Origin: Chamaelirium japonicum
Taxonomy: Eukaryota; Streptophyta; Magnoliopsida; Liliales; Melanthiaceae
NCBI GenBank assembly: GCA_947650365.1
Contig: OX393553.1
Span: forward strand, 70,851,463-70,915,462
Direction: 5' to 3'
Length of the DNA stretch: 64,000 nt
Shown here: piece by piece, positions 1,414 through 61,820 of the stretch
Numbering within the stretch: the first letter of the stretch is position 1
Layout of the letters: every line of letters begins with the position of its first letter
Translations under genes and position numbers: made by a program
Notes under the pieces: generated by a model
What the model saw: the letters and a program-made list of their open reading frames with translations, nothing else
Database searches by the model: none
Told to the model about the DNA's origin: nothing

Positions 1414-19169
<17,756 letters not shown>

Positions 19170-40887: not shown

Positions 40888-41262
40888 GGTAGGGGAGGTG
40901 GGGGTTGGTTGGTCGCATCGAAGGCTCCCGCTTCGTGCCAATCGGCACGGGCATGCCAAAGGAGGTCAGGTGTGTTGTCGTCGCATACGACAATGGGGGT
41001 GGGGGTGGGGATGCCTGGAGGTTGTCTTGCCGCCGAAGGCAACCCGCTGCATTGCTGACATGTGTGTTGCCGCCGAAGGTGGCCCGCTACAGTGCTGACA
41101 GGCATGGGCATGCACTAGTATATGTCACAGGTTGGACTTTTGAGTTATATCACACTAGCACTCGAGTAAACATTAGTCATTTACTAATGTTGAACCAACT
41201 ACCAAGAGAAATCAATAGGTGGCTAAAGCCTAACACCCAGCGTGGACCTCCGGCTTGCTAGT

Positions 41263-41439
41263 TATTAGATGTAGTGTGTTAGTATACTATTAGTCCCACC
41301 TCAGTTGTGGTAACGTAATGGTGTGAGTTCTCTCTCTATATAAAGAGAGGTAGTCTTATGTAATGTTATTGAGATTAATGAGATAATACAAGGAGATTTT
41401 CTCTCCAATCCTATTCTCTCTCCCTCTCTCTTCGTAACA
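41263..41439 (+). repeat. E3 5' LTR
   Basis: 177 bp with a TATA box (TATATAAAG, 41337-41345). It ends TTCGTAACA and is identical to the 3' LTR. Confidence 0.93.
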
Positions 41440-41452
41440 TGGTATCAGAGCC
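41440..41452 (+). other. E3 primer-binding site
   Basis: TGGTATCAGAGCC directly after the 5' LTR, complementary to initiator tRNA-Met. Confidence 0.9.
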
Positions 41453-41839
41453 AACCCTCTTGGCCTAGGGTTCGACGCTCTCCTCTCCGGCCTCGGCCTC
41501 CTCGGTCGTCGTCGATGACATCGAGGAGGCCGGGAAAAATAAAAATTGTTTTTTTCCCGTCTCTCTCTCGCTCCTGACTATCGGATCGATGTAGTCGATC
41601 TGGTACGAACACTGGCGCTCTGCCGTCGCTACCGTCCCGAGCCCTACGCTCTGACCCATTGCGCATCCCTGCGCCCCGGTCACCGTCGGCCCTCGCCGTC
41701 GCTGATGCTCGTCGGCCTGCCGCCAGGCCCTGCATTCGGACACCGGCCCGCGGCCCGGCACTACATCCAGACTCAGCAATTGATGTCCACGGGGCAGGAG
41801 GTGGCTCTGCAGTCCCCGCTCCCACCCTGAACGTTGTCA

Positions 41840-42280
41840 ATGGCGGATGTTGCACGCAGCGGCGATGATCGGATCAAGGGCCCATGGACGCCTGAGGAGG
41901 ACCACGCCCTCCGGAAGCTCGTCCAGGCGCACATACCCCGGCCACTGGTCCCTCATCAGAACCTCCATCCCCGGCCGCTCCAGCAAGTCGTGCCGGCTCC
42001 GCTGGTGCAACCAGCTCTCCCCGCAGCACCACCCCTTCACCACCGAGGAGGGCGACGCCATCGTCCGGGCCCACCGACAACACCGACAACTCCGTCAAGA
42101 ACCACTGGCACTCCACCCTCAAGCGCAAGCTCGCCGCCACACTCTGCGCTCGAGCTCCCGCCGCGCCCGCTGTTCTCCGCACCGGCCTCGAGCTCATGCC
42201 GGCCCTGCACCCGCCGGCCTGCGCCCGCCGGCCCTGCCAGCCGGATCTGCCGCGCCGGCCCACCTGAAGACCTCGCGCTA
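41840..42280 (+). pseudogene. Captured R2R3-MYB fragment (subgroup 22, MYB44-like) inside E3
   Basis: From ATG 41840 the frame reads DRIKGPWTPEEDHALRKLVQ, the first helix of R2. After one extra base at about 41933 it continues in the next frame with WSLIRTSIPGRSSKSCRLRW and CNQLSPQ plus PFTTEEGDAIVRAH, the end of R2 and start of R3. The following ~50 bp of R3, with its central tryptophan, are missing. At 42073 the third frame resumes with TDNSVKNHWHSTLKRKL, the end of R3. The CRLRWCNQLSPQ and NHWHSTLKRKL signatures are those of the stress-related MYB44/70/73/77 group, whose genes are normally intronless. With two frame breaks and a deletion it cannot encode a normal MYB DNA-binding domain. 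Sense orientation to the LTR means it would be part of the element transcript. Confidence 0.88.
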
Positions 42281-42288
42281 GACCTCTG

Positions 42289-42640
42289 ATGCCCCCGCTC
42301 CCGTCTCCGGCTCGGCCCCGGGCCCCGCTCCCGTCTCCGATCTGGCCTCGGTTGTCGTCTCCGGCCGAGTATCCCGCACCGCCCGCCTATCCCGCACCGA
42401 AGTCCGATCCGTTCGGCACTATCCCGCACCGGCCACTTATCCCGCACCGGAGTCCGATCCGTTCGGTACTATCCCGCACCGGCCACTTATCTCGCACCGG
42501 AGTCCGTTCGGTACTATCCCGCACCATATCATTATCCCGTACCGGTACCTATCCCGCACCGGTGCCTATCCCGTATCGAACCCGAATATATCCCGTACGG
42601 AAAGATATCCCGTATCGGTGTCTTATCACGCACCGCTCAT
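42289..42640 (+). repeat. CCCGCACC-type tandem repeats in E3
   Basis: TATCCCGCACCGGCCACTTA and CGGAGTCCGATCCGTTCGG words are repeated several times (42370-42640), preceded by CTCCCGTCTCCG repeats. The frames through it are repetitive and resemble no known protein. Confidence 0.75.
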
Positions 42641-43250
42641 CCTTCCGCTCCAGCCCGCGCCCATTGTTCTTGCTTTGAGCCGGTGACTACGCTGTGCGGT
42701 CGAGTTCTCTCTCTATATAACTGATCACAGCCATCCGATTTGCATCAGATGGCTATGCTTTATGCTTTGCTGCCCCTGTGCTGTACATCCAACCCAGCAC
42801 GACCCTTGCACCCGATCCGACCCTCTTTCACCTGGCCCTTTGCGCCGCCCGGATCCTGTGCTCATAGCATCTCACCACCCGATCCGGCCCTTCTGTACCT
42901 GGCCGGCTCTTCGCATTTTCGCCTTGCGCTCTGATCTGTTGCGCTCTCTCTGCGACCCTGCACTCGAGCTGCCGCTCCACCTCTTGTGCCCGCGTCCTGT
43001 CTCCGGCACAGTAGCATGGGGGGCCAGATCTGGCGCTCCCGGCCATCCCCTCGCTGCTTGCACTCTCCTTGAGCCCTGCACTCTGTCAGTCAGCCCGCTG
43101 CGCCTTGCGCTTTGTCAGCCCGCCTTGCACCCTATGCCCTTGCGTTTTGCCGATTCGGCTGCCCCATCGCCCCGCTCTGTGCCCTTGCGCCTTGGTATTT
43201 TTGCGCTCTCCGCCCTACCGATCCGCCTTGCACCATTTGATCCTCTCTAG
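42641..43250 (+). other. GC-rich E3 interior of unknown origin
   Basis: Frames rich in Cys, Pro and Leu cross this stretch, but none is recognisable. At 42702-42720 there is an exact 19-nt copy of the LTR TATA region (GAGTTCTCTCTCTATATAA). It may derive from further captured sequence. Confidence 0.4.
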
Positions 43251-43631
43251 TTCCGGTCACACTTGTTTTGTGCCGGCTTTTGGATCTTTTTCTCGTTCCG
43301 GTCACACTTGTCTTGTGCCGGCTTTTAGATCCTCTCTAGTTCCGGTCACACTTGTTTTGTGCCGGCTTTTGGATCCTTTCTCGTTCCGGTCACATTTATT
43401 TTGTGCCGGCTTTTAGATCCTCTCTAGTTTCGGTCACACTTGTTTTGTGCCGGCTTTTGCATCCTTTCTCGTTCCGGTCACATTTGTCTTGTGCCGGCTT
43501 TTTGATCCTCTCTAGTTCCGGTCATATTTGTTTTGTGCCGGCTTTTTGGATCCTTTCTTGTTCCGGTCACACTTGTCTTGTGCCGGCTTTTGGATCCACT
43601 CTCGTTTCGGTCATTCTTGCGCCGGCTTTCC
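43251..43631 (+). repeat. 44-bp minisatellite in E3, about 8.7 units
   Basis: Units begin TTCCGGTCACACTTG and continue TTTTGTGCCGGCTTTTGGAT. Successive units alternate between CTTTCTCG and CTCTCTAG endings, giving an 88-bp higher-order period. The period is not a multiple of three. Confidence 0.9.
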
Positions 43632-44087
43632 TTGGTCTTGTGACCCTATCAGAGCTACAACTCTTCATCTTCTCCTTCTTCTTTGTCTATGATGATTGAG
43701 ATCTTCTAAGAGGTGTCAAGTACTTGCTTCGGCCGGGTGCTTGCCTCTTATGAGGTCTCACGCATTCACATCTTTTCGTAGCCGCTCTCTCTCCTTTCGG
43801 CCTCCATTATTGCCGGCTTCCATCACCGTCGGTTTCCTTCGCTCCGATCCTTAGTGATCATTGTCAATTCCCCCGGTTGACCTGCTTACAGGTTGGCCGG
43901 GTTCCCCCGGTTGTCCTGCTTGCAGGTCAATCGGGTTTTCAGGACGACTTGCTTGCAGGACGCCCTGGCACTATCTTTACTTTTCAGCATAAAAAAGGGT
44001 TATTTGATGTAATTTTTTTTCCCTTTTTTTTTCTTTCTTTCTCCTTCCTTTTATTAAGCAAACTGATGTCGGTTTATACCTTACATC

Positions 44088-44101
44088 AGTTTGACGGGGG
44101 G
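44088..44101 (+). other. E3 polypurine tract
   Basis: CAGTTTGACGGGGGG directly before the 3' LTR. A small purine run, similar in position to those of E1 and E2. Confidence 0.65.
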
Positions 44102-44278
44102 TATTAGATGTAGTGTGTTAGTATACTATTAGTCCCACCTCAGTTGTGGTAACGTAATGGTGTGAGTTCTCTCTCTATATAAAGAGAGGTAGTCTTATGT
44201 AATGTTATTGAGATTAATGAGATAATACAAGGAGATTTTCTCTCCAATCCTATTCTCTCTCCCTCTCTCTTCGTAACA
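44102..44278 (+). repeat. E3 3' LTR
   Basis: Identical to the 5' LTR over 177 bp and followed by the CTAGT duplication. Confidence 0.93.
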
Positions 44279-44283
44279 CTAGT

Positions 44284-45197
44284 AAATAGCCGATGGTTAT
44301 TATTTTTTTAAACCAACTACCAACTCAAGAGCCAACCAGAATCAACCTGACCTTAGTGTGGGTTGGGTTGGTTCGAGTCTATGCCCAAGTCGGGCTGGTT
44401 CGGGTTTCAATATGGTAGAACCAAACTAGCTCGGTTTGGTTCCAGTTTCGCTCAAACCCAAACCAACCCGATCCGAGTTGCATACTTGCATCCCTACTCA
44501 TTGCAACCTCTCTACTCTCAGAAGAGCAATGCTACTCAGCCAGAAGGTTTTCCCGATTCCACTCAGCCCGATTGACGTCGCAACGTGCAACTGGTGGTGT
44601 AAAAGACTTAAATATCGCTAGTGGGTTTCAGCCACCAGTTGCTCGCTGCCATGTCAATCGGGCCGGCGAAATCTGAAAAACCTTCGAGCTAAATAGCATT
44701 TCTCCTCTTAGAAATAAATGATCCATTTCGTCCGTATTTGAGAGTTAACGGATACAAATGGGTCACCGGCCCATCTCCTAAGCGGGCCGATTCAAAAAAA
44801 AAAAGATCAACCCAGGACAAATGAGCTGTCGATGCACTCGGCCTGAAATGATTGAGTGTAGGAGGAAGAAGATGGGGGAGGGAGGATGAGGTTGGACGCG
44901 ACGGTCGGCACGAGATCAGTGGCACTGTCAAAAAAGAAGAGAAGAGAAGAGAAGAGGAAGAAAAAAAAGTTGCTTACAGAGTCGGAGGCTACCTTTAATC
45001 TCGAGCTACCCTTAGCCAAAGGTTGCCTCCTGTCCGCCTTTGCAAAAATTTGTAAGGTATATAGCCGCCCCCATCTTTCAACCATACTAACGGTTTAAGT
45101 GTTTGTTCCGTAGATAAGTCTACTTTGTGTTGTTATCTAAAGAGTGTTTTGTTATTTAGAAAGTGTAGTGGCTCATCTTGGCTTCGAAAGAGAATCA

Positions 45198-48158: not shown

Positions 48159-61820
<13,662 letters not shown>

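Follow-up and report, generated by a model that had tools for sequence, protein, structure and literature searches.

A family of gag/pol-less LTR retrotransposons in Chamaelirium japonicum that carries pieces of different host genes between shared ends

Introduction

The capture of host-gene pieces by retrotransposons with long terminal repeats (LTRs) is already known and is usually described as scattered events across many families. A stretch of 64,000 nucleotides from Chamaelirium japonicum (assembly GCA_947650365.1, contig OX393553.1, positions 70,851,463 to 70,915,462; C5:70851463-70915462 in our numbering, hereafter the window) contains an LTR retrotransposon, E3, that carries part of a MYB44-like gene. 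This locus raises the question of whether its cargo is an isolated accident or the product of a process acting on a whole family, and by which route the host sequence entered. Our analysis indicates that E3 is very probably a copy of a non-autonomous Copia-like LTR family with replaceable cargo between fixed ends, filled from co-packaged host mRNA.

Results

E3 belongs to a family with shared ends and a variable middle

E3 spans positions 41263-44278 of the window, 3016 bp in all, with an interior of 2662 bp. Its two LTRs are identical at 177/177 positions, the flanking bases just outside them differ, and a perfect 5-bp target duplication, CTAGT, coincides with the repeat ends, which read TA..CA and not TG..CA. 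A sequence-only reading of the locus had reported these LTRs and the duplication together with a primer binding site (PBS), a polypurine tract (PPT) and the lack of gag and pol, and all of these features are confirmed: six frames of the interior compared with Pfam at E<=1 gave only Myb_DNA-binding, and no gag or pol.

Querying the genome (1.52 Gb) with the LTR and PBS returned 2561 first-look candidates, unconfirmed beyond the 40 that were scored, which match at 95-100%. From these 40 best places, 31 elements including E3 were analysed, in the window or in fetched sequence. They are 2.0-3.3 kb long, and 27 of them are surrounded by exact 5-bp target duplications, the exceptions being a unit of a tandem array (L009a) and three copies with 1-2 mismatches. 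No coding capacity was found, yet exact duplications accompany most copies; this indirectly supports the earlier proposal that E3 would be moved in trans by another element. The recurrence of the same LTR, PBS, PPT and 5-bp duplications at many unlinked places excludes in practice that E3 or its LTR pair is an assembly artefact or duplication.

Median LTR divergence is 1.7% over the 31 copies (L025, with a truncated second LTR, included), or about 0.66 million years (My) at 1.3e-8 per site and year, and four of the 31 LTR pairs show no difference at all. For E3, the absence of differences over 177 bp sets an upper 95% age bound of about 0.65 My at the same rate.

Copies share their first 286-397 bp. 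They also share most of a 3' part of 1.2-2.4 kb, in which some copies have further poorly shared stretches. Between these ends lies a middle part, the cargo, with a median length of 763 bp. In 26 of the 31 elements, at least 227 bp of cargo recur in no more than one of the other copies analysed. The cargos are mosaics: pieces of the middle are shared patchwork-wise between copies, always in the same orientation among the matches listed.

The central zone holds pieces of many host genes

We compared all 31 cargos with Pfam at E<=0.01, using three sense frames of each (93 sequences) and 93 antisense frames, with about one chance match expected per set. The sense frames matched 13 Pfam families, none named for a transposon protein, and the antisense frames matched seven, of which one, Mito_fiss_reg (E 0.0064), was treated as chance. 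In total, 15 of the 31 cargos have a host-gene match, 14 of them above the Pfam cut-off, and the 13 kinds of host-gene cargo above the cut-offs all lie in the same central zone.

Cargo is in sense orientation in 11 elements and in antisense orientation in five, L042 having both. Sense cargos match MYB (E3), thaumatin (L010, L014 and L041, E down to 8e-32; 95-96% alike and taken as one capture), tubulin (L016), DUF7870 (L024, below the cut-off), RPL12 (L027, also with a PDB match), carbamoyl phosphate synthase (L035), G-patch (L036), the aspartic protease C-terminal domain (L040) and RRM (L042). Antisense cargos match cytidine deaminase (L017), mitochondrial carrier (L026), WRKY (L030, E down to 2e-25), lectin (L032) and a pyridoxal-phosphate enzyme (L042) whose closest PDB chains are threonine dehydratases. 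The MYB piece noted by the sequence-only reading is thus present in E3, but gave an incomplete picture, being only one of many host-gene cargos in the family.

Among the remaining cargos, 21 chosen frames of L015, L020, L023, L025, L029, L033, L037 and L038 gave nothing above the Pfam cut-offs. A TFIIB-like cargo seen by eye in L015 was not counted (two frames without a Pfam match, one of them also without a PDB match), nor was a flotillin-like cargo in L020 and L029, for which L020 gave only a weak coiled-coil match below the Pfam cut-off and no PDB match. Ankyrin-gene-like cargo was also seen by eye in L018 and, directly after a MYB piece, at a further locus, L047.

Cargos from two multi-exon genes lack introns

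The WRKY cargo of L030 matches a parent at C8:63411443-63412150 in three blocks of 95, 99 and 88% identity; a second place, C2:68840296, holds the cargo at 96%. The two introns of the parent, of 66 bp (GTAAG..TTTAG) and 81 bp (GTCTG..GGCAG), are both missing from the cargo exactly at the splice sites, where ...AAGAAGAG is joined to GAAGGCACTGC and ...ACACCCAAG to AGGCTACTAC. The threonine dehydratase cargo of L042 matches one parent block of 180 bp on C4 at 98%. In the parent, AG precedes this block and GT follows it, and the cargo runs on past both exon borders with codons that fit the neighbouring exons. Because the WRKY cargo lacks both introns and the threonine dehydratase cargo crosses exon borders, these cargos derive from spliced mRNAs, most likely acquired by template switching in trans.

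The RRM piece of L042 is found at nine other places at 92-97% identity, none of which also holds the threonine dehydratase piece; cargo has therefore been exchanged or added.

The MYB piece of E3 spread after its capture

Three open frames in E3 together encode the start, R2 and parts of R3 of a MYB44-like protein. Protein matches at E<=0.001 were obtained for 22 of 37 candidates, the named ones including MYB44- and MYB73-like proteins of several plants, and a frameshift-tolerant alignment of the region to a plant MYB scored 320, compared with 30 for the opposite strand and no more than 42 for any of 30 base-shuffled versions. Together with the Pfam match, this bears out the earlier claim of a captured MYB44-like piece in sense orientation.

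A search of the genome with the piece gave 20 matches, among them two parent genes arranged head-to-head at C5:66875683-66876030 and C5:66878264-66878617, about 4 Mb from E3 on the same contig. Their frames are open throughout the fetched stretch (246 and 215 codons, each cut by the stretch ends), and identity in aligned columns is 297/311 to parent A and 295/310 to parent B. Homology to parent A starts 13 nt before the ATG and 39 nt past the end of TATATATAAG, and stops at the end of R3. Deletions of 44 nt (in R3) and 6 nt and an insertion of 1 nt separate the piece from parent A, so that it is broken and does not encode a working MYB domain.

The piece is present at three further family loci and has therefore moved with the element; it is not a separate later insertion confined to E3. 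L045, at a contig end, has the LTR, the leader and MYB with the same 44-nt loss as E3. L047 has the LTR, the leader and the first MYB part, followed by the gene-like piece seen by eye, and L048 has the last 69 bp of the MYB piece and a 654-bp match to the E3 interior, with no LTR within the fetched stretch. The left MYB junction is identical in E3, L045 and L047, and this identity, together with the deletion shared by E3 and L045, points to one MYB capture followed by spread. The remaining matches, shorter or less alike, were taken as other MYB genes. The description of E3 as very young accordingly holds for its last insertion and not for the capture, the piece being 4.5% diverged from parent A, broken, and marked by a deletion that another copy shares.

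Discussion

How cargo may be acquired

We propose that a replaceable cargo is framed on the 5' side by a fixed part (LTR, PBS and a leader of about 120 bp) and on the 3' side by a part that is fixed for the most part (repeats, hairpins, PPT and LTR). The family RNA would be packaged, reverse transcribed and integrated by the proteins of another element. During this process the reverse transcriptase would quit the element RNA, copy part of a co-packaged host mRNA and move back to an element RNA, and we infer such strand transfer between co-packaged RNAs in trans. The resulting new copy would bear a host-gene piece, and later rounds would swap, trim and recombine cargo among copies. The cargo of E3 is the 5' part of a MYB44-like gene on C5 and would have been taken from its mRNA. 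An mRNA copied in minus-strand synthesis would give sense cargo and one copied in plus-strand synthesis antisense cargo.

An A-run/T-run inverted repeat in the leader may be a hot spot for junctions. The shared 5' part often ends inside or just past it, and in L030 this stretch is duplicated in tandem beside the cargo. Both the duplication and the patchwork sharing of cargo would fit repeated strand transfer. Two hairpins of the 3' domain (43872-43935 and 44060-44092) are possible packaging or strand-transfer signals.

Several points weigh against this proposal. No autonomous partner of the family has been identified. Two Copia elements in the window, E1 and E2, encode Copia-type pol and have a PBS and PPT resembling those of E3; as parents of E3 they were rejected, with only the PBS and short matches in common. 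The cargo of E3 cannot itself show an mRNA origin, because its MYB parents are intron-less across the captured part, and the threonine dehydratase parent was compared over one exon and its borders. The left cargo junctions inspected show the element's own A/T runs and no clear poly(A) tail. To explain the antisense cargos (cytidine deaminase, WRKY, lectin, threonine dehydratase and mitochondrial carrier), the model has to be extended by a further step. Sixteen of the 31 cargos have no assigned Pfam host gene, a weak DUF7804 match could be tied to no element, and five copies (L009a, L012a, L013, L031 and L039) have no private cargo sequence. Finally, the 31 copies represent the closest LTR matches to E3 and not a random sample.

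E3 might instead represent a single accidental capture, as in the maize element Bs1, in an otherwise unremarkable family. Single captures are well documented (2026 review, PMC13317346), and none of the other 30 analysed copies is among the 20 genome matches of the MYB piece. Recognisable host-gene pieces in 15 of 31 copies, of 13 kinds above the Pfam cut-offs and in the same central zone, contradict a single capture in this sample, and we consider it very unlikely. Slightly better placed, though still improbable, is the entry of cargo at the DNA level into integrated copies, through repair filler, ectopic gene conversion or the insertion of another transposon, with subsequent spread. The short, mosaic cargos in both orientations would suit such a route; against it, introns are absent for both multi-exon parents examined, and the cargo sits between the same shared ends.

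The least credible explanation, to which we give hardly any weight, is that the central zone is what remains of gag/pol or leader sequence belonging to the family itself, the gene matches having arisen by chance in G+C-rich sequence. The main inserts listed do mostly have a G+C content of 0.65-0.74, and about half of the copies lack an assigned gene. Chance does not account for 88-99% nucleotide identity to host loci with open frames or exons, nor for the Pfam E values of the WRKY and thaumatin cargos, and the six frames of E3 gave no gag or pol match. For MYB, WRKY and threonine dehydratase this explanation is refuted.

Beyond the acquisition of host mRNA, one may speculate that the family is a specialised mRNA sampler, in which the leader hairpin serves as a strand-transfer platform and the helper's reverse transcription routinely swaps the central segment for host mRNA. 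We regard this extension as doubtful. If true, the family would continually produce libraries of sense and antisense host-gene chimeras that carry a promoter, and these could at any time silence the parents or give rise to new genes.

Comparison with known systems

E3 falls outside two established classes of small or non-coding elements. Terminal-repeat retrotransposons in miniature (TRIMs) are very small, under about 1.5 kb, and large retrotransposon derivatives (LARDs) combine long LTRs with a long non-coding interior of over 4 kb; the lengths of E3, its LTRs and interior, and of its family fit neither. Pack-MULEs and other Pack-TYPE elements are non-autonomous and carry varied host cargo between conserved ends, and the E3 family works like them in this respect. 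The hallmarks of Pack-MULEs are terminal inverted repeats and a 9-bp duplication, whereas E3 has direct LTRs and a 5-bp duplication, and unlike Pack-MULEs its family is an LTR element with spliced cargo. Pack-MULEs are described as DNA transposons that carry introns too (PMC4717578).

The review cited above (PMC13317346) covers Bs1, Rider/SUN, template switching and a TRIM with a P450 piece. Like the E3 family, Bs1 is an LTR element with exon-only, partial pieces of several host genes (three in Bs1). It represents transductions into one element type, whereas the E3 family has different cargos across copies, lacks gag and pol, and has cargo in both orientations. Gao et al. (2016, PMC4717578) describe gene pieces in TRIMs, GmaRetroS15 among them, with 30 such elements of 1,172-1,449 bp from seven of 289 subfamilies. 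These elements too are small LTR elements with 5-bp duplications, exons only and sometimes more than one gene; in contrast to them, the E3 pieces occur within one family, in 15 of 31 sampled copies of 2.0-3.3 kb. In pepper, LTR elements contain retroduplicated NLR genes, and for about 72% of these genes the element lacks gag/pol (Kim et al. 2017, PMC5664825). That case resembles ours in the capture of spliced host mRNA by mostly gag/pol-less LTR elements with help in trans, but concerns one gene class, whereas the E3 family has unrelated host genes in one cargo zone.

In maize, 425 LTR elements with gene pieces, from a set with 35,229 full-length elements, represent at least 189 captures (PMC2774510), and no element with two standard genes is reported under the conditions of that study. 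In the E3 family, gene pieces are present in about half of the copies sampled, and L042 has pieces of two genes in opposite orientations. LTR elements of rice and sorghum also hold host-gene pieces (PMC3726574). Among the papers listed in a search mainly of open-access literature, we found no LTR family reported to have different host cargos in a single zone across about half its copies. Such a variety of cargos at a single position, in about half the copies sampled from a family, is unusual.

A single family whose ends are conserved while about half of its sampled copies hold different host cargo would make the capture step measurable, since sister copies dated by their LTRs could reveal when and at which junctions capture took place, in which orientation and from which mRNAs. 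Pieces of host genes in both orientations, lying behind an LTR with possible promoter activity, are also a plausible source of small RNAs against the parent genes and of exon shuffling. The family gives the impression of a natural collector that reshuffles host messages.

Annotation of E3 and neighbouring elements

Features of E3 are listed in Table 1. We take the PBS to be of the initiator Met-tRNA type. The zone left of the MYB piece may be older or unidentified cargo.

Table 1. Features of E3 in window coordinates; recurrence refers to the analysed family copies.
Feature	Position	Strand	Evidence or recurrence
Target-site duplication, left copy CTAGT	41258..41262	.	sequence
5' LTR, 177 bp, TA..CA termini, with TATATAAA at 41337-41344	41263..41439	+	recurs in genome
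PBS TGGTATCAGAGC, directly after 5' LTR	41440..41451	+	same in family-copy 5' ends inspected (L016: one base changed)
Conserved leader	41440..41560	+	common to 30/30 other copies
A-run/T-run inverted repeat of leader	41531..41559	+	in many copies the shared 5' part stops inside or just past it
Zone left of MYB piece	41561..41826	+	common to 19/30 copies at left edge, then 7, then 0-3
Captured piece of MYB44-like gene, from 13 nt ahead of ATG to the R3 end	41827..42138	+ (sense)	
Remainder of central cargo zone, including TATCCCGCACCG repeats (50-bp unit)	42139..42632	+	at most 6/30 copies share any 50-bp bin
3' domain with hairpins and 44-bp tandem repeat	42633..44101	+	common to 15-30 of 30 other copies per 50-bp bin
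Hairpin directly before PPT (AAACTGATGT/ACATCAGTTT)	44060..44092	+	stretch 44040-44101 z = -4.6 vs shuffles
PPT GACGGGGGG, directly before 3' LTR	44093..44101	+	same or near-same before most second LTRs inspected in family
3' LTR, identical to 5' LTR	44102..44278	+	
Target-site duplication, right copy CTAGT	44279..44283	.	

Within the 3' domain, the 44-bp tandem repeat at 43239-43613 has 8.5 copies with an 88-bp higher-order unit and is matched in family copies, and the stretch 43868-43960, with the hairpin 43872-43935, has z -5.1 against shuffles. An exact 19-bp copy of the LTR TATA region lies inside E3 at 42702-42720; a match to it at <=2 mismatches is found inside seven of the 31 copies. 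Retrozymes carry a hammerhead ribozyme in the LTR; an Rfam scan of 41200-44350 at E<=0.5 gave no match to a known RNA family, ruling out this identity for E3. An LTR 31-mer was absent from the viral contigs in which it was looked for.

Two family loci have compound structures. L009:2950-8853 (C10:831949-837893) is a tandem array of the form LTR-interior-LTR-interior-LTR, and L012 (C7:33800304-33808303) has an apparent duplication of about 3.2 kb, the flank ATAGGAAA preceding both copies of LTR and leader.

Of the two Copia elements in the window, E1 (4800-9845) has LTRs of about 180 bp that are 98.9% alike and a target duplication TATTT if the LTR ends at CA; its pol frame is broken by stops, and it has no clear gag, with only weak zinc-finger/zinc-knuckle matches. 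E2 (56201-60303) has 141-bp LTRs (99.3%), a target duplication ATAAC and one uninterrupted pol frame of 1256 aa, whose best relative, at 74%, is from the orchid Platanthera. With no gag Pfam match besides the GAG-pre-integrase domain of pol, E2 is possibly a gag-less element. Just outside E3, an imperfect inverted repeat at 44516-44712 (blastn self match in opposite orientation, 74%) is perhaps a small terminal-inverted-repeat element.

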